NCBI GenBank assembly: GCA_017620395.1 | Contig: JAFZQJ010000012.1 | Location: forward strand, 1 to 64,000 | Length of the DNA stretch: 64,000 nucleotides | From: Clostridia bacterium | GTDB taxonomy: Bacteria; Bacillota; Clostridia; Oscillospirales; RGIG8002 | Direction: 5' to 3' | Part shown: positions 34,222-51,942 of the stretch, one piece after another | Layout: each line of letters begins with the position of its first letter | Numbering within the stretch: position 1 is the first letter of the stretch | The notes under the pieces: generated by a model | Databases searched by the model: none | Told to the model about the DNA's origin: nothing | The model's input: the letters and a program-made list of their open reading frames with translations, nothing else | Program-made: the position numbers and the translations under genes

Positions 34222-34298
34222 GGCTGAAACGTGTCCGGAGCCGCGCCCGGGCGCGATCGCCGGAATTGTTACATAATATATATATTATATTTATATAA

Positions 34299-34329
34299 AA
34301 AAACGCCCGCACGCTGTGCGGGCGTTTTT
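34299..34329. terminator. Bidirectional terminator between CDF gene and giant surface protein gene
   Basis: A 14-bp stem (AAAAACGCCCGCAC / GTGCGGGCGTTTTT) with a 3-nt loop. T or A runs on both sides let it end the CDF transcript and the convergent minus-strand operon. Confidence 0.88.
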
Positions 34330-34346: not shown

Positions 34347-37300
34347 CTAATCGACGTAGTCCGGAATTACGCGGGCGTTGGTGTAGATGAGGTAGTTTTC
34401 CGCCTGCGAGACGAGCAGTACGTCGGAGGGATCCGACTTCTTGAAGAGCTCGACGTTGAGCCTGATCTTGTAGTTGGAGTAGGTCAGGCCCGCCGCCTCG
34501 AACGCCGCGCCGGTGTAGATCTTGAAGTCGAAGGGCAGCTCGAGGCTCGTCGGGAGCGCGCTCGAGCCGGTGACGACGCCGCGCGGGAGGACGAAGGTGT
34601 ATTCGTATTCGTTCGTTTTGTTTTCCGAATAGTCCGCGACGCCCGCGTCGTAGCCCTTGGCGGCGACGCTGCTCATATAGGTCCGGAAGCTGCGGCCGGC
34701 GGTATAGCCGTCCTCCTTCGAATAGAGGCGGAGCGTGCAGCGGATCATATCGTAGTTTTCCGCCTTCTCCTCGATATCGGAAATGTCGTAGACGCCGAGC
34801 GTGGAGATCTGCACCTCGGTCAGCGCGTTATCGTCAAGCGGGTTGATGCCGAGCGGCCCGTAGTCGCCGACGAAGACGTCGCTCCTGACGTTGTAATGCA
34901 GTCTGGCGGTGCGGTTGTCGATCTTGCAGTAGTAGGAGTGGTTCGCGGAGTCGTTCGCGCCCGCGGCGATCTTGCTGTATGACGTGCCTTCGCGGTAGAA
35001 CGCGACGTTCGACGTGCAGGAGGCGGTCGTTCCTATGCTGACGTTCGTTTCGTCCTCTCTGTTCGGGAACTGCTCGGAGATCGCGACGTCGTTATCCCAT
35101 TCGAAGGTGACGGAGGCGTTTATGACGGCGCCGTTGCCGGCGACGAGGTATTCGTTGATATGGCGGTTGACGTTCGCGCTGCGTATCTCGGCGTAGGTGG
35201 CGTTGTTCACTTCGTTGACGGTGAACTCGTTAGCGGTGGATGCGACCGCGCCGTTGACGGAGCCGATAACGTAGGTTCCGCTCGTATTCGGGTTGCCGGT
35301 TATGATCCTGCGCGACGAGCCGTCGTTTTCGTTGCGCGTCAGATAAAGCATGAAGCTGTGGAAGACGTTTATGTTGGAGTTGCCGCCGAGGTAGGCCTGG
35401 ACCTCGCTCTTCAGCGCGGAGTCGAGACTGACGGTCGTTTCCATCTCCGCGGTCAGCCTGCGGTTGCCGTTGAGGACGGACATCTCGGTGAAGTTCGGCG
35501 AAGTCGTCAGCGAAACGCCGCTCTGCACGAAGATGTTGCCGAGGATGAGGTGGACGTTGCCGCCGCCGTCTCCCTGCAGCTTGGCGGCGTCCGCGATACG
35601 GGACGGGCTCGAGGCGACGCCGAAGGTCGCCGGCGCACTTATCGTGTAGTGATAGACGACGTTGCTCGAGGTCGAATCGGTGAAGAAGGAGACGTAATAC
35701 GGCTCCGACATATCGACCTGATCTTCGGAGGAAGCGCCCTGCGGGAGGTCGGCGGAGAGCGTTACGTGCTGCGCGTCGTGATCGGCGGCGTCCGCTTCGT
35801 TGGCGACGCGGAACAGATGCTCCGCGCCGTTGTAGGTCGCTCTGACGGTCGCGAGGTTCGGGGCGGAGTCGCAGAGTATCAGCGTGCCGTTCGGGTCGTC
35901 GGCAGCCGTGAAGCTCAGACCGGGGAAGTCGTTGAAATCGCACGGGGTGAAGGCCGCGCTCGTGTTATCGTCGAGCGTTTCTCTGAAGTTCGCCAGCGAG
36001 AGTATGCCGGTGCCGGCGTTGTAGACCTCTCTGAAACGCGCGTAATACGGCTTGCCGCCGTTCGTCGCGTCGTTGAGCACGAGGATGGTATCGCCCGGCA
36101 GATCGGGGATGCTGCTCGACTTCGTGAGGGTGAGCGTCTTGGGGTAGTTCCAGAGCATATTGTCGCCGTTGTTTGCGGCGGCGGTCCATTCGTCGTAGCT
36201 GCGGATGTAGTTGTATTTGAAGAATATACTCGCCGGCGTGCCGAGGTTCTCCATCAGCGGCTTGCCGAAGCGGTCGTTGACGGTGTACCACGCGCGTTCG
36301 TAGTTGGTGCCGGTGCCGGTGGCTATGTCGAAGTCGAAGGTCAGCATCTTCTTGACGAGCGCGGGGATATAGAGGTGGTAGGCGATCTTGGAGGTGTCCG
36401 CGGGATCGCAGAAGCCGACGTCGATGAGGGTGAACATATGGCCCGCGGTGTCGACGTTGTTGATATCCATCGCGAACTGACCGGTGCCCGTGTTGCGCTG
36501 GAGGTTCGCGGCGCCGGAGGGAACGAAGCCGCCCGCGCCTTCGTCATAGACCATCTTGTAAAGGTTGATCTTGTAAATGCTGTTGTTGTTGACGGCGTAG
36601 TTGTAGTTGGTATTCGCGAGCATGTTGATATAGGAGTTTACCGTGTTCGTCGTGTTGATGCGGCTTATGTCGTCGATTATCAAAACGGCGAAGTCGTCGG
36701 CCAGCGAGGCGTTCTGCTCGGCGTTGTAGGTGGAGAGCTTCGCGGTGTTGAACTGCGTCTTGTAGAGGTCGCTCGCGTATTTATAGCGCCTGTCGCCGGC
36801 GATGATCTCCTGTATCGGCAGCCCCGCTACGGTGTCGGAAACGCCGTCGCCCGTCAGCGCGAGATTCGCGCCGCCGACGTTGTGCATCGGGTTGACGGTG
36901 ACGAAGGGATAGGTCGCGGCGTAATCTGTCGAGGCGTTGTAGCGAGAGGAATCGCTTTCGTTGCGCGAAGCCGGGATGCAGTCGCCGTCGAAGTCCGCCA
37001 TCACGACGTAGCCGTTTGTGCCGAAGATGCCGATACCGGAGCCGCTGTTGTTGATGCCGACCACGTTGATCGTCGCGGAGGTACCACCCTGGATGGAAAC
37101 ACCTGCGAATTTGACCGTTTGCTTGGTATTTGTGCCGATGAGCATGCCGGGGGTTTTGTTGCCGCCGTTGTTGACGACGCTGACTCCGTCGAGCAGGATA
37201 TTGTGCCCGCAGACCTTGCCGTTCGCGTTGCCGTTGAGCGCGCCGAACATTCCGCCTACGCCTATCAACGCGGGGGAGTTGTCCGCGGTGTAAGTCGCAC

Positions 37301-40300
37301 AGCGTGAGACGGTGCAATCGACTATTTTACTGTCTGTGAGATTGAAATAGGAATTTGCGTTGTTGTTTACGGTGAAGGTGCCGATAAGCCCGCCGGCGCT
37401 CGCTTTCTCCGAGTTATAGGAGGAAACGATGCTGTAATTCTCGACGTTCACCGAGGTCAGCTTGAGGCGCATGTCGCCGCCGAATACGTAGCCGATAAGT
37501 CCGCCGACCATATTCGTGGCGTCGATGGTTTTATTATTGCCGTCTATCGTGACGTCGGTTATCGTGCCCTGAACGCTGTTCCTCGTGACGCCGATCAGTC
37601 CGCCGCAGGTGCTGCCGCTGATCTCGAGGCCCTCGACGGAGGAATTTGAAAAGTCGACCTTTGAGTTTTCAAGACGGCCGAAAAATCCGCCGAGCAGTAT
37701 CTTATAGCGCATGTCGCTGGGACGCCTCATGCGTTTTGTCGCCGTTAAGGAGCCGCCGCTGACTGTTACGTACTGAACAGTGGCGGTTTTGCCGGTTCCG
37801 GTGCAGGCGTATCCGACGAGGCCACCGCCACAGTGGTGCATCTGTTCGAAATCGGCGAAGTCGATCTTCGCGGTACTGGGCTCACCCTTGACCTGAACGT
37901 CCGTCAGACCGATGACGGCGGTCGCGCTCGAGGAGCCCTTTATCGTCAGATCGGCGGAGGCGGCGGTGCTTCCGTTCGCCTGGTTTCCGCCGAAGCCGCC
38001 GACGAGACCGCCCGCGGCGAAGCCGCCCTTGACCGTCAGACCGGTTGCCGAAGGCGCATCGGCGACGAGGTTTTTGGATAATAAATAACCGATATATCCG
38101 CCGGTATACTTCGGGCCTTCTACGGTCAGTCCGTCAAGCGCGACGTTGCTGTAATAGATCGAGTTGACGGAAGTGCCCGTCACGCCGCCGGTATGCATAA
38201 TATCGGCAGCTTCGATACGGTCGGCGGCGTCGGGGTAGTAGGCGGTCTGGTTGTTGTAGTTGTGCCAGCCGTAGCCGTATTTGATATTGCCGCCGTTCGA
38301 GAGTTTGCGGATATCGTAGAAGACGCTGCCGGTCAGCGTAAGGTTCTTTATCGAGTTCGTGTCGCTGCCGGCGTTGAAGCTGTCGAGATACGCGGCGTTT
38401 ATCATGCCGAAACCGGCGCCCGCGTAGGGCTTGTAGTTCTCGATTTGCAGGTTTGTCTTGATGTTCTTCTTGTCGCTGATGGTTTTTATGCCGTTTCCGT
38501 CTGTAGATATGCCGCTCTCGTGGTTGTATTCCTGATACTTCATATTGAGGTTCACGGTTTTGCCGTTGCCGTTGAACTGCTTGAACTGCAGATAAAGCGC
38601 CTTGTCGTTGCTGTAAATGCTGCCGATGCCGCGGAAGCCGGCGGGCATATCGTAGCTGTCGCCCGTCAGGTTTATCGCGGAAACGACGGACTTGTTGGAG
38701 GAATTGCCGCAGACGCTTCTCGCGCGGAGCAGCGTTGCGCTGCTGCTCGCAGTGTATTGCCTGATAATATACGGCGTCTTGTTGCGGCCGGCGTAGATAT
38801 CCTGCGCCGCGACGATATCGTAGTCGCCGCTGCTCGCCGCGCCGGTGCCGACGTCGCTGTAGGCGGCGCATCTTGTCGAGGTGTACTCGCGGTAGCCTAT
38901 CCACTGTGCGTCCGTGATCGACGCGTAGTCGGTGTTTGAAGAGCCGTAGGACGCGCTGCCCGCGCCGCTGTTGACGACGCAGGAGAGGATATAGAACGCC
39001 TGAGCGTCCGGAATATTGACGGTGTAGGCGTCGCGTCCGGTCGCGTTGACCTCCAGCTTCGCGGAGCTCGAGGGAACGAGGTCCGGTATGCCGTAGTTCT
39101 TCGTGCCGTTGTTGACCGTCGCGGAGTTCGCCGCGTAGGACGAAGCCTCGTTGAAGGCGTAGCCGGCGATGACTCTGCCGATTATCGGGTTGACGTAGAG
39201 CCAGCCGTCGTCCGCGACCTGCGGGCAGACGTCGGAGGTCAGTCCGGAGGCGGCGGCCATATTGCGGAAGATCACGCCGCCGTTGAGGACTACGCCGATA
39301 TAGCCGCCGACGGGCATCAGACGGTTGCAGTCCGGATTCGAGTTCGCGACCGGGAAGCTCGCCTGCGTATCCGCTTCGCCCTCGTGCTCGACGGTGAAGT
39401 ATACGCGGACGTTGTCGATGACGTTGTCTCCGCCCATTACCTGGCCGATGACCGCGCCGTAGGAGGCGCAGGCGGCGTTGTCGTATCTGAAGGGGAGGAC
39501 GGAGTTCTGGCTTATGCCTATCGCGGAGTCGGTCCTCACGGTGACGTTTTTGACGACGCAGCCGTTGGCGGACTTGATGAGCGGGTTGTTGGACTTGTTG
39601 ATTATCGTGCCGCCGACGATGACGCCGCGGAAGGCGTACTGACAGTTGAAGCCGCTCGTGGCCGTCCAGTCGGCGAGGCCGCCGCCGAAGCCGACGAAGT
39701 CGGCGGGAAGCTCGATTTCGGAGGCGATGCTGTAATACGCGCCTGCGAGATAGGCGCGGACGTTCGCGAGCGACTTGGTGTCGCCCGCGTCGGAATCGTT
39801 GACGAAGCTGCCGCCGGAGTAGGTGTAGGTCGCGTGGGTGTTCTTGTTGTCGCACCACATATCGAGGGTGTTGGAGCCGACGTTGGTGGGCAGCGCGATA
39901 TTGACGCCGTCGATCGGGCTGCCGCTGATGATCTTCGCGGCGGTCGCGAGCATCGCGCCGTTGGTGATGATATAAGGATCGTTATACTGGCCGCAGCCGG
40001 TGGTAAGGCTCTCGTTCTTGACGTTGACCTTTATCTCATGGTAGCCGTTCGCCGCGTCGTACGCGTGGTTGACGTACGGCAGGAAGCCGGAGGAGAAGTT
40101 ATACGCGCTCGCGCCCGAGCTGTCCGTCGGGTGGGTGTAGCGGTTGGGATCGTTGTAGTAGTGATCCTCGAGGCCGGCGTATTCGACGGAGTCCTTGACC
40201 TCCTTGCCGTATGTGACGCGGCGGCGGTTGGAGGTCCAGTCCTCGTCGTAAGTGTAGTTGTATTCGCCGAGGCTTCCGTTAAGGAAGCGGAAGGATTCAA

Positions 40301-43300
40301 GGAAGGTCGCGCGGTCGAAGATGGAGCGGTCGGTGCCGTAGGCGGTATTCAGACCGCTCATGCCGCCCGTCGCGGTGCGCGCGTCGAGCTTGATATCCGA
40401 GAAGGTCAGGTTGATGTTCGTCGCCGTGTCGTAGCCGACGTTGCCGATGAGGGAGGAGGCGACGGCCGCCGTGCCCGTCGAGGGGTAGACGTCCGCGCCG
40501 GAGCCGCCGGTCGCGAGACCGGTAATATCGAGCTTGACGTTCTTGCCGACGTTGTTTATCAGCAGCGGCGAATAGGCGCCGGAGGTCCTGTTCGAGATCT
40601 CCGCGCCCGCGAGGGTGATATTCTTCAGATTCGCGCGCAGCGTCTTGGTCGTGTCGCCGAGCGTCCTGCGGACGAGGAAGCCGGAGTCGCCTTCGTCGAG
40701 CGAAACGTTGCCTTCGAGCGTCAGTACGTTGACGGTGAGCGAGGCGTCGTCGAAGGCGTTGGAGCAGTTGAGGAAGAGCCCCTGATGCATGAGGTAGTGC
40801 TGCGTTTTCTCGACGTCGGCGCGGGTGGAACGCGCATGGCCGTCGCTGTCGCCGGAGCCGCCTTCGCCGTCTTCGATCTCCTGATTATAGAACTTGACCG
40901 TGGCGTTCTGAATGGTTACGCCGGAGACGTCCACGTGGTAGTAGGAGAGTCCGGCCATATCGCAGTTGCCGGATATCCTGTTGTTATAGGCGTTGTTGAA
41001 GAAGCCGCCGTTGGCGGATTTGTTTATCGAGCTGTGCGCGTACCTGTTGAGGCTCCAGAGGAGGAGCTTTTCCGCGTCGCTCTTCGAGCTCTTGTTTCTG
41101 ATAAGGTCGAGGTTGTAGTAGTAGCGCGTTTTATCGTTGACCTTGCGGGTGTTTTTCCCGTAGGCCGTCTGATTCTGGTAGGTGTTGCAGCCGGCGCCGT
41201 CCGTGACGAGCGGAGCGCCGCCCGCGGTGCGGATGGAAACCACGCCGTTGCCGTTGCCGTCGATGCGGTTGTCGCCGACGACGGTGTTGCGCACGACCTC
41301 GTCGAAGGAGTTGAACGTGCCGGAGAAGGCCGTGTTCGCGACGTCGTAGCCGTCGCTGACGAGGTCGAGATATATCGCGGAGGAGGTGCCGTTGGTGCCG
41401 TCGTTGACTATGAAGCCGAAGGTGCAGGGATCGACGGCGTTAAGCGTAAGCGCGTTGACGTCGACGTGGTTGACCGTCCAGTGTCCCGTGGCTCTGCCGA
41501 CGAGCGCGCCGCCGGCGGGAACGATTGAGCCGTCCTTTTTCCAGGTCACCGACGGGCCCGAGGAGCCGCTGCCGATGATGACGCCGTCGGTTCCGCCGTC
41601 GGTCCCGATCGTGACGTTGGCGTCGATCCATTCGCAGCCGAGCAGTCCGCCGGCGCACGCCGCGCTGTCGCGGACGCGTGTGCTTATGCTCGCCGCGTCG
41701 CTGACGGTGACGTTGTTGAGCAGTACGCTGCGGGTGAAGTTGCCGCTGTTCGCGGCTATCGTGCCGATAAGTCCGCCGTAGCGCGTGCACCTGAAGCCGC
41801 AGGAGCCGTTCACGCAGTTGTCGAACTTTCCGGCGACGGTCACGTTATCGAAGTCGAAGGTCAGCGCGCTGACCGATGCGACGTGTCCGATCGCGCCGCC
41901 GACGTAAGCGTCGACGTTGGAGGAGACGGCGCCGTTCCTGTTGTTCTCAATTATGTCGTTTTCAAAGACGGAGCCGGAGATCACGGCCGTGCCGGCGGCT
42001 CCGGTGTCGAACAAGCCGATCGCGCCGCCGCAGTAGAGCTTGGAGCTGTTTGCGGTCTGGCCGAAGAGGTGTATATCCTGTTTCGTATCGACGTTCGTGA
42101 GCGTCACGGGGTTGGACGAACCGGAAACCTGCGCCGCGACGCCGCCGACGTTGTACGTCGACGAGGCCTTCGCCGCGAAGAGGGAGATATATCCGTCGAC
42201 GGTAAGGTCGCTCACCACCGCGTTGCTTACCTTGGCGAAGAGGCCGAGGTATTGGTGGCCGATGACGGTGCCGTAGTTGTTCGCGCCGATATTCGCGGGA
42301 GCGGAAAGCGCCGCGCCGCCGCTCATTCCGTAGGGCTCGCCGACGGCGAGGTATACCGTCCGGCCGTTTCCGTTGAAGCTGCCGGTGAAGGCGGCGTTGG
42401 AGCCGTTATCGCGCGTCAGCGCGACGATGCCGGTGCCGGAAAGGTCGATATCCGCGGTCAGGGAAAGGTTGCCGCCGAGGATGCTTCCGCTGCGGGAGCC
42501 CGAGCTGAATTTCAGCGCGCCCTTGTCCGCGTAGTTGTGCTGGACGTTGAGGGCGGTCTTTATGAAGTCCTTTTTCGAGGCCATGCTCGCGGCGTGTCCC
42601 GCGACCGTGACCGTGTGGGCGTTCATATCCACGGTGAAGAAGTCGCTTTCCGCGAGTCCGTTCGCGGAGGAGAGGCGGAGCGCCTCGCCCCAGTCGCCGA
42701 TATCGTCGACGGTGCCGCTGCCGCGCTTGAAGGTCCAGCCCGCGTCGGAGCCGCTGCCGAGCGCGTAGACGAGGCCGTTGCCGCGGGTGTTCACCAGCTG
42801 CGCGGAGGAGTAAGAGGCGCCGGAGAGGTCGGTCGTGCCCGCGATGCGGAGCACGCCTTCGTTGAGCGCGCTTACGAGTCCCGAGCCGACGCTGCCGTCT
42901 ACGTCGATCGTCCCGCTGACGTCGAGGAAGCTGCCAACTTCGCCGGCGGAGCCGACGATGCCTCCGCTGACGGCGGCGTTCGTCGTCACGCGCGCGTCGC
43001 TTATGCTCGCGTAAAGCGGGTACATGCCGAAGGTGCCGATGAGTCCGCCGCTTATGGTGGAGGAACCGCTGTTGGCGAGTATCTTCACCTCAACGTTGTG
43101 AACGTCGAGGGTGTTCGTCAGGAGCGTGTTGGAATATCTGCCGATAAGTCCGCCGCGCGTGCCGCCGCCGGTGAATCTGACCTGCTTCGTGAAGGCGTTG
43201 TCGGTAAGGACGGCGGACGTTTCGGTTATCGTCACGCTCGTGTCGGAGTCGAGCGTACCGGAAAGCGCGCCGACGTTGCCGGTGCCCGCGATGGTGAAGC

Positions 43301-44369
43301 CGGAGTCGGTGATTATGCCGTCGAGCTCGAAGGTGCGGACGTCCGCGTTCGCGCCGGAGCCGTTTCCGGCAGTGCTCTTGTAGTATCCGTATACGCCGCC
43401 CGCGCCCTCCGAACCGGTGACCGTTTTGGAGAGGGTGACCGTCGCGCCGCCGACGAGTTCGATCTCGGCGTTCAGCGCGGCGCCGACGAGTGCGCCGGCG
43501 TATTTCCTGCCCGAGGTTACGTTCGCGACGGAGGTGAAGCTCTCTTCGGCGATGAGCTTCGCGCCGTTCGCCGCCGAGCCGACGACTCCGCCCGCGTAGC
43601 CGTTAGCGGAGTTGACGGTGTATTCGTTTGCGGACGCGACCTTGAAGGTCAGCTCCGCGCCCTCGCCGAGCGTGCAGCATATCGTGCCGACGTCGCCCGC
43701 GCTCACCGCGTTCGCGGGAGTTCCCGAAGCGGAAACGGAGTCGTGGGTGAAGTCGATCCTGACCTTGCAGTCCGCCGCGACGTCGCCGACGACGCCGGCG
43801 AAGGATTCCGCGGTCGCGTTTACCGAGTCGCGGTCGTCCGGCTTGAGGATGATCTTCCAGTCCGCGGCCGAACCCGCGGCGTTCACGACGTGCTGAGCGA
43901 AGAGCGCGTTGTCCGAGGAGGCGAGACGCGCTATCTGCAGCTCTCTGGTCGCTCCGGCGGTGTTGACGGTGCTCGCCGCGGTGGTTATATAGCCGAAGAG
44001 CGGCACGTCGGATATGAATCCGGCGGTCGCGTTATCGGCAATCTCGACCGTGCCGTTGAAGGGCCTTGAGGATGTGCCTATGGAAACGTAGCCGCTGTCG
44101 CCGGACGGAAGCACGAAGACCGTGCCGGCGCTCATGGCGAGCTGTATCGTATCGTCGGGGTTGTGTCCGCCGCGCGCGTATTCGCGCGAATACGCGATGA
44201 GGTCGGCGGAGGACGAGATCGCGATCGTCGCCGCGGGCTGCTGCTCAAGGGGCGTGTCGTCTTCCGCGGACACGACGAAAACGCCCGCAAAGTTTGCGAG
44301 CACGATGACGCAGGCGCAGAACGCCGCGATCATTTTTCTCAATGCTTTCGTTACTTCGGAAGTCGTCAT
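34347..44369 (-). CDS. Giant GLUG-type beta-helical surface protein (3340 aa)
   Basis: A 3340-residue exported protein. The signal peptide covers residues 1-35 (FVVSAED). Most of the rest is made of 20-plus irregular repeats built around GGLIG, GGLVG, GALVG, GGAIG and similar motifs followed by polar turns, as in GLUG repeats, which predict a very long right-handed beta-helix. The last ~700 residues are a series of beta domains. I see no LPxTG sortase motif, no dockerin, no S-layer or choline-binding repeats, and no C-terminal anchor helix, so attachment is unexplained. AAGAGGG precedes the ATG. Last gene of a four-gene operon behind a c-di-GMP riboswitch. An adhesin or matrix filament is likely by inference only. 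Confidence 0.93.
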   Translation of the reverse strand: MTTSEVTKALRKMIAAFCACVIVLANFAGVFVVSAEDDTPLEQQPAATIAISSSADLIAYSREYARGGHNPDDTIQLAMSAGTVFVLPSGDSGYVSIGTSSRPFNGTVEIADNATAGFISDVPLFGYITTAASTVNTAGATRELQIARLASSDNALFAQHVVNAAGSAADWKIILKPDDRDSVNATAESFAGVVGDVAADCKVRIDFTHDSVSASGTPANAVSAGDVGTICCTLGEGAELTFKVASANEYTVNSANGYAGGVVGSAANGAKLIAEESFTSVANVTSGRKYAGALVGAALNAEIELVGGATVTLSKTVTGSEGAGGVYGYYKSTAGNGSGANADVRTFELDGIITDSGFTIAGTGNVGALSGTLDSDTSVTITETSAVLTDNAFTKQVRFTGGGTRGGLIGRYSNTLLTNTLDVHNVEVKILANSGSSTISGGLIGTFGMYPLYASISDARVTTNAAVSGGIVGSAGEVGSFLDVSGTIDVDGSVGSGLVSALNEGVLRIAGTTDLSGASYSSAQLVNTRGNGLVYALGSGSDAGWTFKRGSGTVDDIGDWGEALRLSSANGLAESDFFTVDMNAHTVTVAGHAASMASKKDFIKTALNVQHNYADKGALKFSSGSRSGSILGGNLSLTADIDLSGTGIVALTRDNGSNAAFTGSFNGNGRTVYLAVGEPYGMSGGAALSAPANIGANNYGTVIGHQYLGLFAKVSNAVVSDLTVDGYISLFAAKASSTYNVGGVAAQVSGSSNPVTLTNVDTKQDIHLFGQTANSSKLYCGGAIGLFDTGAAGTAVISGSVFENDIIENNRNGAVSSNVDAYVGGAIGHVASVSALTFDFDNVTVAGKFDNCVNGSCGFRCTRYGGLIGTIAANSGNFTRSVLLNNVTVSDAASISTRVRDSAACAGGLLGCEWIDANVTIGTDGGTDGVIIGSGSSGPSVTWKKDGSIVPAGGALVGRATGHWTVNHVDVNALTLNAVDPCTFGFIVNDGTNGTSSAIYLDLVSDGYDVANTAFSGTFNSFDEVVRNTVVGDNRIDGNGNGVVSIRTAGGAPLVTDGAGCNTYQNQTAYGKNTRKVNDKTRYYYNLDLIRNKSSKSDAEKLLLWSLNRYAHSSINKSANGGFFNNAYNNRISGNCDMAGLSYYHVDVSGVTIQNATVKFYNQEIEDGEGGSGDSDGHARSTRADVEKTQHYLMHQGLFLNCSNAFDDASLTVNVLTLEGNVSLDEGDSGFLVRRTLGDTTKTLRANLKNITLAGAEISNRTSGAYSPLLINNVGKNVKLDITGLATGGSGADVYPSTGTAAVASSLIGNVGYDTATNINLTFSDIKLDARTATGGMSGLNTAYGTDRSIFDRATFLESFRFLNGSLGEYNYTYDEDWTSNRRRVTYGKEVKDSVEYAGLEDHYYNDPNRYTHPTDSSGASAYNFSSGFLPYVNHAYDAANGYHEIKVNVKNESLTTGCGQYNDPYIITNGAMLATAAKIISGSPIDGVNIALPTNVGSNTLDMWCDNKNTHATYTYSGGSFVNDSDAGDTKSLANVRAYLAGAYYSIASEIELPADFVGFGGGLADWTATSGFNCQYAFRGVIVGGTIINKSNNPLIKSANGCVVKNVTVRTDSAIGISQNSVLPFRYDNAACASYGAVIGQVMGGDNVIDNVRVYFTVEHEGEADTQASFPVANSNPDCNRLMPVGGYIGVVLNGGVIFRNMAAASGLTSDVCPQVADDGWLYVNPIIGRVIAGYAFNEASSYAANSATVNNGTKNYGIPDLVPSSSAKLEVNATGRDAYTVNIPDAQAFYILSCVVNSGAGSASYGSSNTDYASITDAQWIGYREYTSTRCAAYSDVGTGAASSGDYDIVAAQDIYAGRNKTPYIIRQYTASSSATLLRARSVCGNSSNKSVVSAINLTGDSYDMPAGFRGIGSIYSNDKALYLQFKQFNGNGKTVNLNMKYQEYNHESGISTDGNGIKTISDKKNIKTNLQIENYKPYAGAGFGMINAAYLDSFNAGSDTNSIKNLTLTGSVFYDIRKLSNGGNIKYGYGWHNYNNQTAYYPDAADRIEAADIMHTGGVTGTSVNSIYYSNVALDGLTVEGPKYTGGYIGYLLSKNLVADAPSATGLTVKGGFAAGGLVGGFGGNQANGSTAASADLTIKGSSSATAVIGLTDVQVKGEPSTAKIDFADFEQMHHCGGGLVGYACTGTGKTATVQYVTVSGGSLTATKRMRRPSDMRYKILLGGFFGRLENSKVDFSNSSVEGLEISGSTCGGLIGVTRNSVQGTITDVTIDGNNKTIDATNMVGGLIGYVFGGDMRLKLTSVNVENYSIVSSYNSEKASAGGLIGTFTVNNNANSYFNLTDSKIVDCTVSRCATYTADNSPALIGVGGMFGALNGNANGKVCGHNILLDGVSVVNNGGNKTPGMLIGTNTKQTVKFAGVSIQGGTSATINVVGINNSGSGIGIFGTNGYVVMADFDGDCIPASRNESDSSRYNASTDYAATYPFVTVNPMHNVGGANLALTGDGVSDTVAGLPIQEIIAGDRRYKYASDLYKTQFNTAKLSTYNAEQNASLADDFAVLIIDDISRINTTNTVNSYINMLANTNYNYAVNNNSIYKINLYKMVYDEGAGGFVPSGAANLQRNTGTGQFAMDINNVDTAGHMFTLIDVGFCDPADTSKIAYHLYIPALVKKMLTFDFDIATGTGTNYERAWYTVNDRFGKPLMENLGTPASIFFKYNYIRSYDEWTAAANNGDNMLWNYPKTLTLTKSSSIPDLPGDTILVLNDATNGGKPYYARFREVYNAGTGILSLANFRETLDDNTSAAFTPCDFNDFPGLSFTAADDPNGTLILCDSAPNLATVRATYNGAEHLFRVANEADAADHDAQHVTLSADLPQGASSEDQVDMSEPYYVSFFTDSTSSNVVYHYTISAPATFGVASSPSRIADAAKLQGDGGGNVHLILGNIFVQSGVSLTTSPNFTEMSVLNGNRRLTAEMETTVSLDSALKSEVQAYLGGNSNINVFHSFMLYLTRNENDGSSRRIITGNPNTSGTYVIGSVNGAVASTANEFTVNEVNNATYAEIRSANVNRHINEYLVAGNGAVINASVTFEWDNDVAISEQFPNREDETNVSIGTTASCTSNVAFYREGTSYSKIAAGANDSANHSYYCKIDNRTARLHYNVRSDVFVGDYGPLGINPLDDNALTEVQISTLGVYDISDIEEKAENYDMIRCTLRLYSKEDGYTAGRSFRTYMSSVAAKGYDAGVADYSENKTNEYEYTFVLPRGVVTGSSALPTSLELPFDFKIYTGAAFEAAGLTYSNYKIRLNVELFKKSDPSDVLLVSQAENYLIYTNARVIPDYVD

Positions 44370-44423: not shown

Positions 44424-45437
44424 TTAACCCTCGGTGTAAGTAAGCGTGACGCAGCCGGCGCCGCCGGGGCCTCCGGTCAACTCGCTCCAGTCGGTGAAGC
44501 GCACGGCGCCGTCGGCGTAATAGAACTGCAGATCGTAACGCGCGACGTCGTCGGAGTCGACCGCGAAGGTCACGGATGAAACGCCGCCGGACACGGTCGG
44601 CGTGAAATTGTACTTGTTTAGGAAGACCTGGCTTATCTGCAGCCTGGTGTTGTCCCACGTCAGCACACAGGTGCCCGCGCCGGTGCCGGATATGACGTAG
44701 TTGAAGCCGTCGAATTCCGGCTGCGCCGGCGTGCCGGTCATATTGTTCTCGTTGAAGCGGCCCTCCCACGTGTTTCTCGCCTCGGCGTTGCTGAGCGAAA
44801 CGCTGAATACCGCGTCCATGGCGCCGACGTCGGCGGGCGCTCCCGCCGCGGGAGCCGCGCAGAGGTAAAGGCAGAGCGCGGGCGCGTTGATGAAGTCGCT
44901 GTCGAATTCGACGTTGCATATATCGGTCTGGGAGATGCGGTGGTCGAGCGTGTTGCCGGTGAAATCATGAGAAAGCGCCGAAGCGTTGAGCGTGACCGTC
45001 GCGCCGCCTTTGAGCGTGAGCTTTACCCAGTGCGCGCCGACGTCGGAGGCGGAAGCGTCCGTCTTGACGTAAGCGCCGTTGGATTCGCCGAGCATTACCA
45101 GCCTCGCCGTAAGCGTGTATGGGATGTCGTTTTCATGCTTCTTCGTGGGGTTGCCCTGCGCGTAGTTGCATATCGTGACGTCGCCGCTGACGGTGGAGGA
45201 GTCGCTGTTCGTATAGAGCACGCGCTTGTAGATGTTCGCGGCGGTGTTGGCGTTCGGCACGAGGTAGTTTGAGGAAAAAAGCGTGCCTTCGTCACCGCGC
45301 GTAGCGAGAACTCTTTTGGCGCGGCTGCTCTTTATGTATTCGGCGTATACGACGAAGCCGGCGATAAGGAAGAGTACCATTATCGTCGCTATGATCGCCG
45401 TCCGGCGGCTTTTGATGATTCTCATGAATCTGCTCAC
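44424..45437 (-). CDS. Membrane-anchored surface protein, third of the operon
   Basis: A 337-residue protein of unrecognised family. A basic N terminus (RIIKSRRTAII) and one hydrophobic helix (about 14-32, ending VVYAEYI) are followed by a beta-rich extracellular part with no motif I can name. The head resembles those of the two upstream proteins, whose anchors end AYAWF and YGWF, but the W is missing here. I chose the GTG at 45437 because AGGAG lies 9 bp upstream; an in-frame ATG at 45425 is the alternative. It lies 41 bp after the preceding gene and 54 bp before the giant gene. Probably a secreted structural or assembly component. Confidence 0.8.
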   Translation of the reverse strand: MSRFMRIIKSRRTAIIATIMVLFLIAGFVVYAEYIKSSRAKRVLATRGDEGTLFSSNYLVPNANTAANIYKRVLYTNSDSSTVSGDVTICNYAQGNPTKKHENDIPYTLTARLVMLGESNGAYVKTDASASDVGAHWVKLTLKGGATVTLNASALSHDFTGNTLDHRISQTDICNVEFDSDFINAPALCLYLCAAPAAGAPADVGAMDAVFSVSLSNAEARNTWEGRFNENNMTGTPAQPEFDGFNYVISGTGAGTCVLTWDNTRLQISQVFLNKYNFTPTVSGGVSSVTFAVDSDDVARYDLQFYYADGAVRFTDWSELTGGPGGAGCVTLTYTEG

Positions 45438-45478: not shown

Positions 45479-46243
45479 TCAGTAGGAAATGTTCTTCGCG
45501 GAGATATAGACTATGTCGGTTTCCTTGTCGTTCTTCGTGTTCGCGGTCCATTTGACGCGCAGGATGTAGTAGTCGCAGAAATCGAAGTGCTCGTCAAGCG
45601 TGGGCTGTATCGCGGCGGTCGCCTGCCAGTAGAGCGGGACCGCGTGCTTGTGGTGGTTGGTGTAGGGAGAGTTCGAGCCGGAGGGGGTGTAGGTCTCCGC
45701 GTAATAGCGGTCGCCGCCGGTCAGCGCGAGCGTTTCGGCTTCGTCGCCGGTTCCGGCGACCGTGTCGTTGACGAGCTCGCCCGGAATGGGAGAGGCTCCC
45801 GCCGGCGCGGAGTAGTAGAGCGTCGAGGAAACGTCGTCGTGCGTGTCGTATATGACGACGCCCGTGGGATTGCCCGCCGGAGCGGACGCGCTTTCCGTCG
45901 CCGCGTAAACCTCGAATTCAAACTGGTTGTTCGTCGTGTACGCGAGCTGCAGCTTGTACGAGCCGACGTTGTTGCCGCGCACGCAGAAGACGAAATCCTT
46001 GTAAGTGCCGGCTTCGGCGTCGATGCCGCCGAGGTCGAGGTAGCGGATATCCTCCTCGTTGCCGGTGTTGATGAAGATCGCGGTCGGGTTGGAGATCTCG
46101 GTGGTCGCGGCGGTCCTGCGGCCGACGTAGAACCACGCGTAGGCCGCCATCGAGGCGCAGAGCAGGACAAAAGCAAGCAGCGCCGCGACGACCGTCTTCG
46201 GCGTTCCGCGTCCGTTATTCACTTTTGTCGTTTCCTTTTTCAT
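45479..46243 (-). CDS. TasA/CalY-like surface protein, second of the operon
   Basis: A 254-residue protein with a charged N terminus, one hydrophobic helix (about 18-37) and the sequence AAYAWFYVGRRT directly after it. That head resembles the signal peptides of SipW-dependent proteins such as TasA and CalY (camelysin), which form extracellular fibres. The mature part is beta-rich (TAIFINTGNEEDIRYLDLGG, TYKDFVFCVRG, a C-terminal YILRVKWTAN). The fold is a guess from the head and composition; overall similarity to TasA is not evident by eye. CCGGAG lies 7 bp before the ATG. It is 32 bp downstream of the first gene of the operon. No SipW-type peptidase gene is in the window. Confidence 0.82.
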   Translation of the reverse strand: MKKETTKVNNGRGTPKTVVAALLAFVLLCASMAAYAWFYVGRRTAATTEISNPTAIFINTGNEEDIRYLDLGGIDAEAGTYKDFVFCVRGNNVGSYKLQLAYTTNNQFEFEVYAATESASAPAGNPTGVVIYDTHDDVSSTLYYSAPAGASPIPGELVNDTVAGTGDEAETLALTGGDRYYAETYTPSGSNSPYTNHHKHAVPLYWQATAAIQPTLDEHFDFCDYYILRVKWTANTKNDKETDIVYISAKNISY

Positions 46244-46275: not shown

Positions 46276-47343
46276 TCAGTCCGCCGCGCCCGCGGGCTCG
46301 ACGTCGACGCAGACTATCAGAAAGTGCGTGTTGTCGCCGATGAGCTGGTCGGCGTGGTTGTAACCCTCGCTCAGCTCAACGAAATAGTAGTTGGGGTAGT
46401 CGGCGGCGGCGAAGGCCGTCGCGGCGGGTATCGCGAGGTTGCGGAAGAACTTTCCGGGATGGGTGCTGATATAGGTCAGTATCTCGCCGCGCTCCGTTTC
46501 GTCGTTATAGACGGGGTGGGCGTGAACCATGGGTGAATCGTTCTCAAGCGCGAGCTGTCCGAAGGTCGCCGGCCATATCCAGTAGATCTCGACGGTGTAA
46601 TAGCGGTCGCCCGTGTCGGGATCGGTGTAGTCCGGAGCGGCGGGCAGCTCGAAGGTGAAGGCGTCGTCCGTCAGGCGGTCGGAGTAATAGTAGCCGCCGT
46701 TTATCAGGGCGCTGCGGGTCTTGTAGAAGAGGACGTGTCCGGAAAGCATCTCCTGCAGCTCGGTGAGAAGCTCCTCCTGCTCCGCCTGAACGGCGGGGTC
46801 GGTCTCGTCGGGGTCGACTATCGGCGTCGGATCGCCGTTCGCGGCGATGCCGAGCGGGTAGAACGAGAGGGCGACGTCGAAGCCGGCGTCATAGTCGCTC
46901 TTCAGCACTATGTCGAAGCTGATCTTGCCGAAGGCGCCGGGGGCGAGGTCCTCGCCGTTCTCCTCGTGCGGGTTCTCGTTGACGAGATGGCAGAGGATGG
47001 CGGTGTGCCCGTTGTCGGTGATATAGTCCGGATCAAGCTTTTCGTAGCCGCCGTTTTCCTCCCGCGCCAGATACTGCGCTATCGGGGAGTCCGCGGCGTA
47101 AGGCGTGCGCTGGTCGTTGTCCGGCGTGCCGTCGCGGTCGCGGACGGCGATCTCGTAAAAGGAATCGTCGTTCACGCCGGCCTGCATGCCTTCGGCGGAG
47201 ACGCTTTCGTTTTTGGTGAACCAGCCGTATGAGAAGTGGAGGTAGACCGTTATGACCGCAGTGAGTATCAGTCCGAGCACCGTGAGGTATATAAGTCTGT
47301 GAAACAGCGAACGCTTCTGGTTGTTCCGTGCGCGATCGGTCAT
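46276..47343 (-). CDS. TasA/CalY-like surface protein, first of the operon
   Basis: A 355-residue protein. A basic N terminus and a hydrophobic helix (about 17-37) are followed by SYGWFTKNESVSAEGM, a good match to the Y-[AG]-W-F-T/S head with a following SVSA-type strand common in SipW-dependent, TasA/CalY-like proteins of Firmicutes. The mature part is acidic, with an NPHEENGEDLAPG turn and a FSFDIVL-like strand pattern typical of such beta-sandwiches. GGAGGAG precedes the ATG at 47343; the longer open frame would run back through the riboswitch. This is the first gene behind the c-di-GMP riboswitch. A fibre subunit or its anchor is plausible, not shown. Confidence 0.86.
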   Translation of the reverse strand: MTDRARNNQKRSLFHRLIYLTVLGLILTAVITVYLHFSYGWFTKNESVSAEGMQAGVNDDSFYEIAVRDRDGTPDNDQRTPYAADSPIAQYLAREENGGYEKLDPDYITDNGHTAILCHLVNENPHEENGEDLAPGAFGKISFDIVLKSDYDAGFDVALSFYPLGIAANGDPTPIVDPDETDPAVQAEQEELLTELQEMLSGHVLFYKTRSALINGGYYYSDRLTDDAFTFELPAAPDYTDPDTGDRYYTVEIYWIWPATFGQLALENDSPMVHAHPVYNDETERGEILTYISTHPGKFFRNLAIPAATAFAAADYPNYYFVELSEGYNHADQLIGDNTHFLIVCVDVEPAGAAD

Positions 47344-47383: not shown

Positions 47384-47427
47384 AAAATAAAAACGCTGCG
47401 CGTTCGTGCTTTGCCGAACATCGCAGC
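47384..47427 (-). terminator. Expression-platform terminator of the c-di-GMP riboswitch
   Basis: On the minus strand a 12-bp stem with one bulged A (5' arm 47415-47427, 3' arm 47395-47406) is followed by a T-rich run (47384-47393). The 5' arm shares GCTGC (47423-47427) with the 3' end of the aptamer, so aptamer closure and terminator formation exclude each other. Confidence 0.82.
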
Positions 47428-47500
47428 TGGCTGCCCCGCGGGGCCCTTTAGCTTTGCGTCGCCGGATTTCTCCGGTTTTGCCAAGTCTGTTTTAGCGTTT
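47420..47500 (-). promoter_or_regulatory. Class I cyclic-di-GMP (GEMM-I) riboswitch
   Basis: Read on the minus strand, the leader shows all GEMM-I hallmarks in order. GGCAAAACC lies at 47474-47482. A CCGGA-GAAA-TCCGG hairpin with a GNRA tetraloop lies at 47462-47475. GACGCAAAGCTAAAGGG lies at 47444-47460, then a second GC stem, and AGCCAGCTGC at 47423-47432. This matches the common clostridial form of the aptamer. It sits between a consensus promoter and a terminator and controls the four-gene surface operon ending at 34347. Whether c-di-GMP turns the operon on or off was not resolved by eye. Confidence 0.92.
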
Positions 47501-47551
47501 CCGATCCGGCGCACGTACGCGTGCGGTGCGCACAAACTCTCAACGCAAAAT

Positions 47552-47580
47552 ATTATAGTAGCAATATGCGGTTTTGTCAA
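47552..47580 (-). promoter_or_regulatory. Consensus promoter of the surface operon
   Basis: On the minus strand, TTGACA (47575-47580) and TATAAT (47552-47557) with a 17-bp spacer, a full consensus. The transcript would start near 47545 and enter the riboswitch after about 45 nt. Confidence 0.88.
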
Positions 47581-47590
47581 GTAAAATATT

Positions 47591-47624
47591 CCCCGCAAAC
47601 CGCGTGGCTGCGCGGTTTGCGGGG
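47591..47624 (-). terminator. Hairpin between recombinase gene and surface operon
   Basis: Perfect 14-bp stem (CCCCGCAAACCGCG / CGCGGTTTGCGGGG) with a 6-nt loop. In the minus direction it is followed by AATATTTTAC, a moderate U tract. It probably ends the recombinase transcript just before the surface operon promoter. The stretch from 47625 to 47782 holds nothing else I can name. Confidence 0.7.
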
Positions 47625-47782
47625 GCTTGCGCCGTTTTTTCCGCGGCGTGAAAAAAAGCGCTGTTTTTAATTTATATTAAGTAATAAATCGGACGCGATC
47701 CGCGTTGCGGAAGGGCGGAGAGAACGGGGGACCGTATGAATTTTTATAAAATTTTCATATTTGCCGCCGCGGGAATCGCTTT

Positions 47783-48625
47783 TCAGGTCACCAGACCGAC
47801 CCCTTCCATACGCTTCGCGTGCTCGGCGCCGGTGGAAATAATATAGATCCGCGTTGTGTTCACGCTTGAATGCCCGAGTATGTCCGCGAGTGCGGAGATG
47901 TCGTGCTCCCGCTCGTAGAAGGCGCGTGCGAAAAGGTGGCGCAGATTGTGCGGAAACGCTTTCTGCGGCGGTATGCCCGCCGCGGCGCAGAGCTTTTTCA
48001 TTTTGCGCCAGACGTTGGTGCGGTCGACCGGCCTGCCCGTGCGCGTCAGGAAGACAGGCCCGGAGGAAACGCCGGTTTCCTCGGCGTAGCGCAGAAGCTT
48101 TTTTCTGAGCGCCGAAACGATAAAGATGCGCCGCGTCTTGCCCTTGCAGCAGACGCTCGTTCCGCCCTCCTTCGCCGCCTCGACGGTGACGTAGCCGAGC
48201 TCGCCGATGCGGATGCCGGTGCAGCAGAGCGTTTGAAGAATTAGCGCGCTGCGGTAGTCGCAGACGCGCTCGGCGGCGGAGATCAGCTGCACGTATTCGT
48301 CGCGCGTCAGCTCCTCGCTTTCGGGGCGGTAGGCGTCCCGCTGCAGGCGGAACTGCCGCACGCACAGGTCTTCCCGCCGCGCGAAGCGGAAGAGCGAGTT
48401 GAGCGCCGCGAGCATCGAGTTCGCGCTTTTGGCGGAGTAGAGCGAGCCGAGCCTGGTCTTGTAGCCGAGAGTCATCCTGCGGCTGACCTCGTTCCCGCCG
48501 GCGTACTCCGCGAAGCGCCTCGCCTCGCGCAGATACTTCTCCACGGTAGCGGCGCTCTTTTCCTGATCGCGCAGATGCTCCGCGAAGCGGCGCTGCAGTT
48601 TTTCGGTAATGAAGAGTCTTTGCAT
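47783..48625 (-). CDS. Tyrosine recombinase / integrase
   Basis: A 280-residue XerC/D-like site-specific recombinase. The N-terminal core-binding domain (about 1-90) is followed by the catalytic domain with the full residue set: Arg in CTGIRIGEL, Lys in CCKGKTRR, HNLRH (HxxR), His in LGHSSVNTT and the nucleophile Tyr in TRIYII. I chose the ATG at 48625 because GGGGGTG lies 6 bp upstream. The gene lies between the surface operon promoter and the divergent EAL gene and has its own promoter. In other Firmicutes such enzymes invert promoters of surface genes, but no inverted-repeat pair is visible here. It could also be an ordinary chromosome-dimer or element recombinase. Confidence 0.92.
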   Translation of the reverse strand: MQRLFITEKLQRRFAEHLRDQEKSAATVEKYLREARRFAEYAGGNEVSRRMTLGYKTRLGSLYSAKSANSMLAALNSLFRFARREDLCVRQFRLQRDAYRPESEELTRDEYVQLISAAERVCDYRSALILQTLCCTGIRIGELGYVTVEAAKEGGTSVCCKGKTRRIFIVSALRKKLLRYAEETGVSSGPVFLTRTGRPVDRTNVWRKMKKLCAAAGIPPQKAFPHNLRHLFARAFYEREHDISALADILGHSSVNTTRIYIISTGAEHAKRMEGVGLVT

Positions 48626-48693
48626 AAAAAACACCCCCATGATTTTTCCGAATATCTTTTCGGCCGGCGTGCCGAACGAAGCCGGCCGGTTAT

Positions 48694-48722
48694 ATTTTAG
48701 AACAAATGCCGCAAAATGTAAA
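48694..48722 (-). promoter_or_regulatory. Promoter of the recombinase gene
   Basis: On the minus strand, TTTACA (48717-48722) and TAAAAT (48694-48699) with a 17-bp spacer. It is back to back with the EAL gene promoter. Confidence 0.7.
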
Positions 48723-48728
48723 ATAAGA

Positions 48729-48757
48729 TTGAAATTTGCGGAACGGTGTGGTATTAT
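48729..48757 (+). promoter_or_regulatory. Promoter of the EAL/HPt operon
   Basis: TTGAAA (48729-48734) and TATTAT (48752-48757) with a 17-bp spacer, 34 bp before the chosen ATG of the REC-GGDEF-EAL gene. Confidence 0.75.
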
Positions 48758-48791
48758 GTTAAGCAGAAGATTATCACACGGGAGTGATGAA

Positions 48792-50498
48792 ATGAGCTTA
48801 TCCGAAAGCGCTCTCGGCCGCGTCGAATCCGCGCGCAGGTCGGTTCTTGTCGTTGACGACGAGCTTATCAACAGAATAATGCTCGGCCATATTCTCGGGA
48901 ATGACTACGACGTCGTTCTCGCGGAAAACGGCGCGCAGGCGCGCGACGTTCTTGAGGAACGCGGCGAAACGATCTCCATAGTGCTGCTCGATCTGATGAT
49001 GCCCGTTATGGACGGCTACGAGCTGCTCGAGATCATGAGAGCTGATCCGAAGATGCGTCACATCCCCGTCATCGTCGCGACCTCGGAGCGCGAAGCCGAG
49101 GTGCGCAGTCTCGAGATGGGCGCCGCGGACTTCATCGAGAAGCCCTACAACGCGCCGGAGGTCATACTCGCGCGCGTGCGCCGCTCTATCGAGCTCGCCG
49201 AGGACGCCAGCATAATCAGCGCGACCGAGACGGACTCCCTCACGGGGCTTTATATCAAGCAGTTCTTCATCGAATACTGCGGCAGGGCGGATTTCTACGC
49301 GCAGGACAAGCCCATGGACGCCGCCGTGCTGAATATCAACCGGTTCCACCTTGTCAACGAGCTGTTCGGTCAGGAGGCGGGCGACAAAGCGCTCGTCGTT
49401 CTCGCCGCGCATCTCCGTTCGATCGCCGTTGAAGTCGGCGGCTTCGCCGGCAGGGGCGAAGCGGATACCTTCTACCTCTATCTGCCGCACCGCGACGACT
49501 ACGTTGATATCCTCAACGGCGCGGGAGCGGTTCTGACGGAGGCGCTTCCGGATACGCACATCAGCATCCGCCTCGGCGTCTATCAGAACGTCGACAAAAG
49601 CATCACGCTGGAGCGCCGCTTCGATCACGCGAACCTCGCCTCGAGCCGCTTCCGCGGCGGGCACGAGTCGCACGTCGGCTTCTACGATTCGAGCATGCAC
49701 GACCGCGAGCTTTATACCGAGCGCCTGCTTGCCGACGCCGACAGGGCGATCGCGGAGCGTCAGTTCAGGGTCTATTTCCAGCCGAAATACAACATAAAGG
49801 GCGACCGCCCCGTGCTTTGCAGCGCGGAGGCGCTGATACGCTGGATCCATCCGGAGCTCGGCTTCGTCAGCCCCGGCGCCTTTATCCCGGTATTCGAGGA
49901 GCACGGAATCATCCACAAGCTCGACGTTTTCGTCTGGAACGAAACGGCGGCGCAGATACGCCGCTGGCGCGAAGAATTCGGCTTCACTCTGCCGGTCTCG
50001 GTAAACGTTTCCCGTGTGGATATGCAGACCGACGGCTTAGAGGAGCAGCTCGCGCGGATAGTGAAGGATAACGGTATCGGATTCGCGGATCTGCGGCTCG
50101 AGGTCACCGAGTCCGCTTACGCCGAAGACGAGAGCGCCGTCGTCGGGATCGTTTCCAACCTGCGCGAGCTCGGCTTCAGGATAGAGATGGACGACTTCGG
50201 CAGCGGGTATTCGTCGCTGAATATGCTGAGCGAAATGCCGATCGACACGCTGAAGCTGGATATGCGCTTCGTGAAGAATCTGACCGCGGGATCGAAGGGG
50301 CTCCGCATGATCGAGCTGGTCGTCGGAGTCGCGAAGTTCCTCGAGGCTCAGGTGATCGCCGAGGGCGTTGAAACCGCGGAGCAGGTGGAGCTGCTGCGCG
50401 GCTGCGGCTGCGACATGGTGCAGGGGTATTACTTCTCGAAGCCGGTCCCGCCGGAGGATTTCGCGCGGTTCATCGCCGCCGGGAAGGAAAACGGATAA
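48792..50498 (+). CDS. Response regulator with degenerate GGDEF and active-type EAL domain
   Basis: A 568-residue cytoplasmic c-di-GMP phosphodiesterase under receiver control. The REC domain (about 15-135) has VVDDE and the phosphoacceptor Asp in LLDLMMPVMDG. The GGDEF-like domain (about 150-310) reads GRGEAD at the active site, so it should not make c-di-GMP. The EAL domain (about 325-565) keeps the catalytic set: EALIRW, NVSR, EVTES, DDFGSGYSSL, TLKLD, AEGVET and the Q in VQGYYFSKP. It should hydrolyse c-di-GMP to pGpG when signalled. I chose the ATG at 48792 because GGGAGTG lies 5 bp upstream. An HPt gene follows by 13 bp, and a c-di-GMP riboswitch operon lies next door. Confidence 0.95.
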   Translation: MSLSESALGRVESARRSVLVVDDELINRIMLGHILGNDYDVVLAENGAQARDVLEERGETISIVLLDLMMPVMDGYELLEIMRADPKMRHIPVIVATSEREAEVRSLEMGAADFIEKPYNAPEVILARVRRSIELAEDASIISATETDSLTGLYIKQFFIEYCGRADFYAQDKPMDAAVLNINRFHLVNELFGQEAGDKALVVLAAHLRSIAVEVGGFAGRGEADTFYLYLPHRDDYVDILNGAGAVLTEALPDTHISIRLGVYQNVDKSITLERRFDHANLASSRFRGGHESHVGFYDSSMHDRELYTERLLADADRAIAERQFRVYFQPKYNIKGDRPVLCSAEALIRWIHPELGFVSPGAFIPVFEEHGIIHKLDVFVWNETAAQIRRWREEFGFTLPVSVNVSRVDMQTDGLEEQLARIVKDNGIGFADLRLEVTESAYAEDESAVVGIVSNLRELGFRIEMDDFGSGYSSLNMLSEMPIDTLKLDMRFVKNLTAGSKGLRMIELVVGVAKFLEAQVIAEGVETAEQVELLRGCGCDMVQGYYFSKPVPPEDFARFIAAGKENG

Positions 50499-51797: not shown

Positions 51798-51849
51798 CGC
51801 TGCGTCTTCAATATTAGTAAAACCGAATAAAACAACAGAAAATATCAAC

Positions 51850-51920
51850 CGCTTATATATCCTTTGAGATATGGTCAAAAAGTTTCTACCGGGCTGCCGT
51901 AAATTGCCCGACTATAAGCA
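51850..51920 (+). promoter_or_regulatory. Guanine-type purine riboswitch
   Basis: The aptamer closes with GCTTATA (51851-51857) and TATAAGC (51913-51919). Inside are the conserved GATATGGTC, AGTTTCTACCGGGC and GCCGTAAATTGCCCGACTAT elements of the purine riboswitch. The specificity base is C in CCGACTAT, predicting guanine (or hypoxanthine) rather than adenine. A terminator follows at 51943. It controls the BMP nucleoside transporter operon. I see no strong promoter between xpt and the aptamer, so read-through from xpt may contribute. Confidence 0.94.
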
Positions 51921-51942
51921 GGATCTTCTTGTCTTTGCTTTC

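Follow-up and report, generated by a model that had tools for sequence, protein, structure and literature searches.

The locus studied here raises the question of what a riboswitch is doing at the head of a 13-kb operon of proteins without a recognizable family, and in which direction it switches that operon. The window, i.e. the whole stretch of 64,000 nucleotides that was analyzed, comes from an uncultured Clostridia bacterium of the Oscillospirales, living in gut or rumen (assembly GCA_017620395.1, contig JAFZQJ010000012.1). We consider it likely that a c-di-GMP-I riboswitch acts here as a transcriptional ON switch of a four-gene operon of exported proteins, the products of which build an extracellular or cell-surface structure. 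The switch consists of the following elements:

47552..47580, minus strand: sigma-70-type promoter TTGACA-N17-TATAAT, 12/12 consensus match, equalled in 0/200 shuffles
47419..47492, minus strand: c-di-GMP-I (GEMM-I) aptamer (RF01051), short P3, GAAA loop, without tetraloop receptor
47384..47427, minus strand: intrinsic terminator, GCUGCG..CGCAGC followed by UUUUUAUUUU, -20.3 kcal/mol, T-run from 47393

A sequence-only reading had proposed a consensus promoter, the conserved blocks of a GEMM-I aptamer and a terminator whose 5' arm shares bases with the aptamer end, and these elements were all recovered at the positions given. The promoter search returned one promoter-like site against 0.3 expected from shuffles, and promoters of equal strength stand ahead of the orthologous operons of two other genomes (G045 and G044, see below). 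The Rfam covariance-model check matched the complete model (1-87) at 47492-47419 on the minus strand with 54 bits, the cut-off being 35, and an E-value of 9.1e-8. With residues mapped to Vc2 as in PMC11218506, the window aptamer carries G, A and C at the equivalents of G20, A47 and C92, which are conserved in the alignment of its relatives. The 5' arm of the terminator (47427-47422) lies inside the aptamer end, where it occupies the 3' strand of P3 as well as position 47423, the equivalent of C92.

The riboswitch is thus a real and ordinary member of the known class RF01051. Its P3 hairpin is short and the 11-nt receptor is absent while the GAAA loop is present; the other five GEMM-I copies of the genome likewise have a short P3 and no 11-nt receptor. 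The trait of subtype I, a GNRA loop docked into a tetraloop receptor, was looked for in the window aptamer and was not found. A receptor-less subtype II of c-di-GMP-I has already been described (PMC11218506), and by its sequence the window aptamer fits this subtype rather than a new RNA. In an alignment of 20 relatives, which were chosen for a short P3 among order-level hits, 96.4% of the helix cells were paired and 34 both-side changes were counted against a shuffled mean of 12.8. The pairing collapses once partners slide by one column. The aptamer helices are therefore backed by covariation, as far as this comparison of sequences reaches.

To describe the switch polarity, the terminators of the aligned copies were folded automatically, which covered 17 of the 20 (the other three were not matched by the pattern). 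In 17/17 platforms the 5' side of the terminator starts in the aptamer stretch GCUGC/GUUGC, or just before it, and this stretch comprises the P3 3' strand and the ligand-pairing C. Because the terminator uses these bases, aptamer and terminator should exclude each other, and thus bound ligand should give read-through. In 11 copies the aptamer-keeping fold lay 5-17 kcal/mol above the minimum-energy fold (nearest-neighbour energies), so that termination should win without ligand. In the window leader, upstream bases form a fold that competes with the aptamer, which may consequently need co-transcriptional folding. A leader-specific antiterminator, GGAAACGCU with AGCGUUUUU in a constrained fold, was discarded as a possible chance pairing that was not obvious by eye in the relatives.

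From this layout we infer an ON polarity; c-di-GMP is the predicted ligand of the window aptamer. In detail, transcription would start near 47545. If no ligand is bound, folding of the RNA from GCUGCG on into the terminator would end the transcript near 47388. Bound c-di-GMP would pair with C47423 and hold the P3 strand, the base of the terminator stem could not close, and RNA polymerase would transcribe the whole 13-kb operon. The products would probably be exported, with SipW-type signal peptidases from other loci of the genome probably trimming those of genes 1 and 2, and would build a structure outside the cell or on its surface that serves sessile life. The ON switch ahead of pilM in Geobacter has the same layout (PMC9262584).

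The opposite polarity, in which the ligand promotes termination and the cell builds the structure when c-di-GMP is low (serving dispersal or contact related to motility), seems unlikely to us. It has a precedent in C. difficile, where class I switches are mostly OFF, with a different layout, and where adhesins and pili are turned ON by class II (PMC6200980); the general statement of the sequence-only reading, that GEMM-I riboswitches in Clostridia control adhesins, pili and motility, therefore needs care. However, OFF switches like Cd1 let aptamer and terminator coexist and use a separate antiterminator (PMC9262584), whereas here the terminator takes aptamer bases, including the C92 equivalent, in every platform that was folded.

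Behind the probable ON switch, the four minus-strand genes noticed earlier, including the 10-kb one, were found at the following positions:

46276..47343, minus strand: gene 1, 355 aa, N-terminal membrane segment then GWF motif, no known family
45479..46243, minus strand: gene 2, 254 aa, N-terminal segment with invariant AWF, no known family
44424..45425, minus strand: gene 3, about 333 aa, YAEY/YAIF-type N-terminus, low-confidence all-beta model
34347..44369, minus strand: gene 4, 10,023 bp, 3340 aa, signal peptide, rich in G/A/S/N/T
34297..34325, minus strand: operon-closing GC-rich hairpin, ACGCCCGCAC-AGC-GTGCGGGCGT, then T-run, read from sequence

Gene 1 starts at the ATG at 47343, preceded by the ribosome site GGAGG. 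The reading frame of gene 3 opens at 45551, overlapping gene 2, and the alignment favours the ATG at 45425. Between the riboswitch terminator and gene 4, neither a promoter-like site nor a minus-strand terminator-like site was found. None of the four proteins matched Pfam or NCBIfam at the curated cut-offs. In the relatives, the N-termini of genes 1 and 2 are hydrophobic followed by an invariant WF, and that of gene 3, YAEY in the window, reads YAIF or YAAY. The gene 4 protein has 14 GG-hydrophobic-hydrophobic-G motifs; neither an LPxTG motif nor a C-terminal membrane segment was found in it. The operon products are probably exported.

Judged by sequence, the N-termini of genes 1-3 may be said to resemble SipW substrates, a likeness at the level of the motif; TasA, a SipW substrate, has F at P2' (PMC10269814). 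SipW-type signal peptidases are encoded in the genome outside the window operon, with TIGR02228 matches above the cut-off at C30 and C26, and could carry out export and trimming. Membership of the operon proteins in TasA/CalY/BsaA was not supported: no Pfam, NCBIfam or PDB-sequence match was found. In the case of gene 3, the model was all-beta with a low-confidence pLDDT of 67.5, and its PDB matches had TM values of about 0.3 or less. In the case of gene 4, the first 700 residues were modelled and showed a beta-helix at about 40-530 with regular short strands, many blocks having a pLDDT of 80-95. The top PDB matches of this model were mostly beta-helix enzymes, tailspikes and adhesins, none of them significant (best E 0.22). 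No Pfam match of the 3340-aa protein to a GLUG-type family model was found.

Relatives of the locus were gathered by whole-genome searches and an aptamer pattern scan. A protein scan of genome contigs with P0001 found no relatives. A search for the second protein, P0002, covered 194 genomes from the order and was blind to riboswitches. Homologues occurred in 4/194 genomes, spread over three families, and 4/4 lie behind a GEMM-I aptamer with the same four-gene order. These loci are the window, G003:C107 (same genus), G045:C111 and G044:C20, the last with a giant of 3330 aa. The tblastn identities to window proteins 1-4 were 22, 39, 34 and 36% for G003, 42, 55, 52 and 59% for G045, and 26, 38, 31 and 34% for G044; the genes flanking the G003 copy differ from those of the window. 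A sister operon encodes a YAWF-type giant (1255-2644+ aa) together with a small protein of the GWF/SWF type; in 6/6 full-length loci of this operon, a GEMM-I aptamer lies upstream. By our estimate, the chance of a random gene lying at most 6 kb downstream of GEMM-I is below 1%, given 2-6 aptamers per 2-Mb genome, versus 10/10 seen, the ten linked loci sharing ancestry and not being ten independent events.

The two parts of the unit do not tell the same story. The window proteins are closest to those of G045. The window riboswitch, in contrast, most resembles the G003 copy and other copies from the window's own genus, its platform being 83% identical to that of G003 and 31% to that of G045. Because protein and riboswitch similarities disagree, it looks as if the operon or the riboswitch had been exchanged and the combination retained, the two having come together on more than one occasion, a picture drawn from four loci short of a full reconciliation.

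Direct control of the operon by a c-di-GMP riboswitch is in our view well supported by these comparisons, because the Rfam hit, the intact ligand-contact bases, the covariation, the exclusive terminator and the conservation at the operon head in three families point the same way. The earlier proposal that c-di-GMP is read directly in the mRNA to build a giant surface structure is well supported in its regulatory half, with Rfam hit, exclusive terminator and linkage behind it; its surface structure is plausible, given the N-terminal hydrophobic segments and the predicted beta-helix, but the proteins match no known family.

A decayed or non-responsive aptamer, kept as a plain attenuator, is very improbable. 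The score of 54 bits is below that of many relatives, which reach up to 83 bits, and the tetraloop receptor is absent; yet the receptor-less subtype is a described one (PMC11218506), the ligand-contact bases are intact, compensatory changes are present, and the linkage has held across 22-59% protein identity. Another cyclic dinucleotide as ligand, e.g. 3',3'-cGAMP, which GEMM variants in Geobacter sense (PMC8835794, PMC9262584), is the least probable alternative of all, as 20/20 aligned copies carry G at the selectivity position equivalent to G20 and many GGDEF and EAL proteins are encoded in the genome.

The probable ON switch of the window, with c-di-GMP as the probable ligand, is one of six GEMM-I aptamers in this genome (G000; 1.93 Mb, 98.7% complete). 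The others are located as follows:

G000:C30:43621-54189 and C24:2714-3191 (L020, L021): five further GEMM-I aptamers

The copies at C30:43621 and 44428 stand ahead of a sister operon (302 aa, a giant of 1956 aa, and SipW-type peptidases further on). Those at C30:51487 and 51370 form a tandem of complete switches 42 nt apart, both with a terminator of their own, and precede a FAWF protein. The copy at C24:2714 precedes a gene that apparently continues as an EAL protein at the end of C30, i.e. is split across contigs. In the EAL domain at C24/C30 the DDFG motif was absent by eye in four orthologues, so this degenerate EAL protein may bind c-di-GMP rather than cut it. As a whole, the genome has ten GGDEF and four EAL matches. 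One of its proteins, a receiver-GGDEF-EAL protein at about 48792-50498 on the plus strand, starts 1.2 kb from the riboswitch promoter.

Similar arrangements were seen elsewhere. In an Oscillospiraceae MAG (L107, 3315-6996), as in the window (47492-50498), a WF-protein gene headed by GEMM-I has the gene of a receiver-GGDEF-EAL protein nearby on the other strand, and these two receiver-GGDEF-EAL proteins are 50% identical. In L162 (G021:C12, 4633-19901), one cluster holds three GEMM-I switches together with an EAL-like gene and genes for two SipW-type peptidases, for FAWF and GWF proteins and for a giant; in L207 (G045:C171) the genes follow one another in a similar order after a single switch.

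Directly upstream of the riboswitch promoter lies a tyrosine recombinase gene (47783 to about 48625, minus), and a serine-recombinase-like gene is found near the sister-operon switches. An invertible promoter driven by the tyrosine recombinase was rejected: the promoter is not flanked by a pair of long inverted repeats, the one perfect pair present (47591-47604/47611-47624, 6 nt apart) looks like a terminator hairpin, and the recombinase is absent beside the G003 orthologue. Additionally, the window contains a purine riboswitch (51833-51934, plus; RF00167, 78 bits), followed at 52063 by the gene of a PnrA/Bmp-type substrate-binding protein. Another likely surface protein (24528-28388, plus; 1286 aa) carries Big_2 and BspA-type leucine-rich repeats. 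Gut-1 RNA (RF01706, an sRNA family) occurs twice in the sampled sequence of the genome, at 57340-57260 of the window (minus) and at 529-451 of L021 (minus).

Altogether, the recurrence of the sensor-plus-genes unit in distant relatives suggests that c-di-GMP directly switches on an undescribed surface structure. New here is a c-di-GMP riboswitch regulon of uncultured Clostridia that covers operons for exported giant proteins, is conserved and has apparently undergone recombination; a coupling of c-di-GMP riboswitches to SipW-type operons was found nowhere in the literature searched, which lay outside subscription papers and preprints. Tentatively, at slightly less than even chances, the riboswitch operons may represent a new class of extracellular structure in these organisms. 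Small exported proteins with SipW-type N-termini and beta-solenoids of about 1,300 to 3,300 residues would go together with dedicated SipW peptidases and a degenerate EAL protein. Several c-di-GMP riboswitches would set all of these, sensor and operon having been recombined in the course of evolution without loss of c-di-GMP control. The locus links c-di-GMP, a defined signal, to protein families that have no annotation. For Clostridia of gut and rumen that only metagenomes have revealed, it offers a testable handle on the switch to surface-attached life, and the orthologous operons are a ready set for structural work.

Known systems share parts of this picture. GLUG/beta-helix adhesins (IgA1 protease-type solenoids, autotransporter adhesins) have GG-phi-phi-G repeats, one FxGxFxGNG motif and a predicted beta-helix in common with gene 4. 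The operons sipW-bsaABCRSD of C. perfringens (PMC7395162) and tapA-sipW-tasA of B. subtilis likewise combine a SipW-type peptidase, here located in the genome and the sister locus, with small exported proteins whose signal segment has an aromatic residue close to its end. In contrast to both, the operon proteins described here show no sequence or fold match, giants of about 1,300 to 3,300 residues are added, and control lies with a riboswitch instead of a two-component system or SinR.

Regarding the switch, Bc3-5 of B. thuringiensis, upstream of cspABCDE, shares the ON layout, its terminator taking the ligand-pairing C, P1 and part of P3 (PMC4759541). Bc3-5 is a tandem of complete switches, to which the pair at C30:51487 and 51370 corresponds, whereas the window operon has a single, receptor-less copy ahead of proteins without a recognizable family. 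The C. difficile regulon also has several c-di-GMP riboswitches per genome over exported or surface proteins (PMC6200980), but while that regulon relies on class II switches to turn adhesins and pili ON, here it is class I, with an ON layout, that heads the operons of exported proteins.
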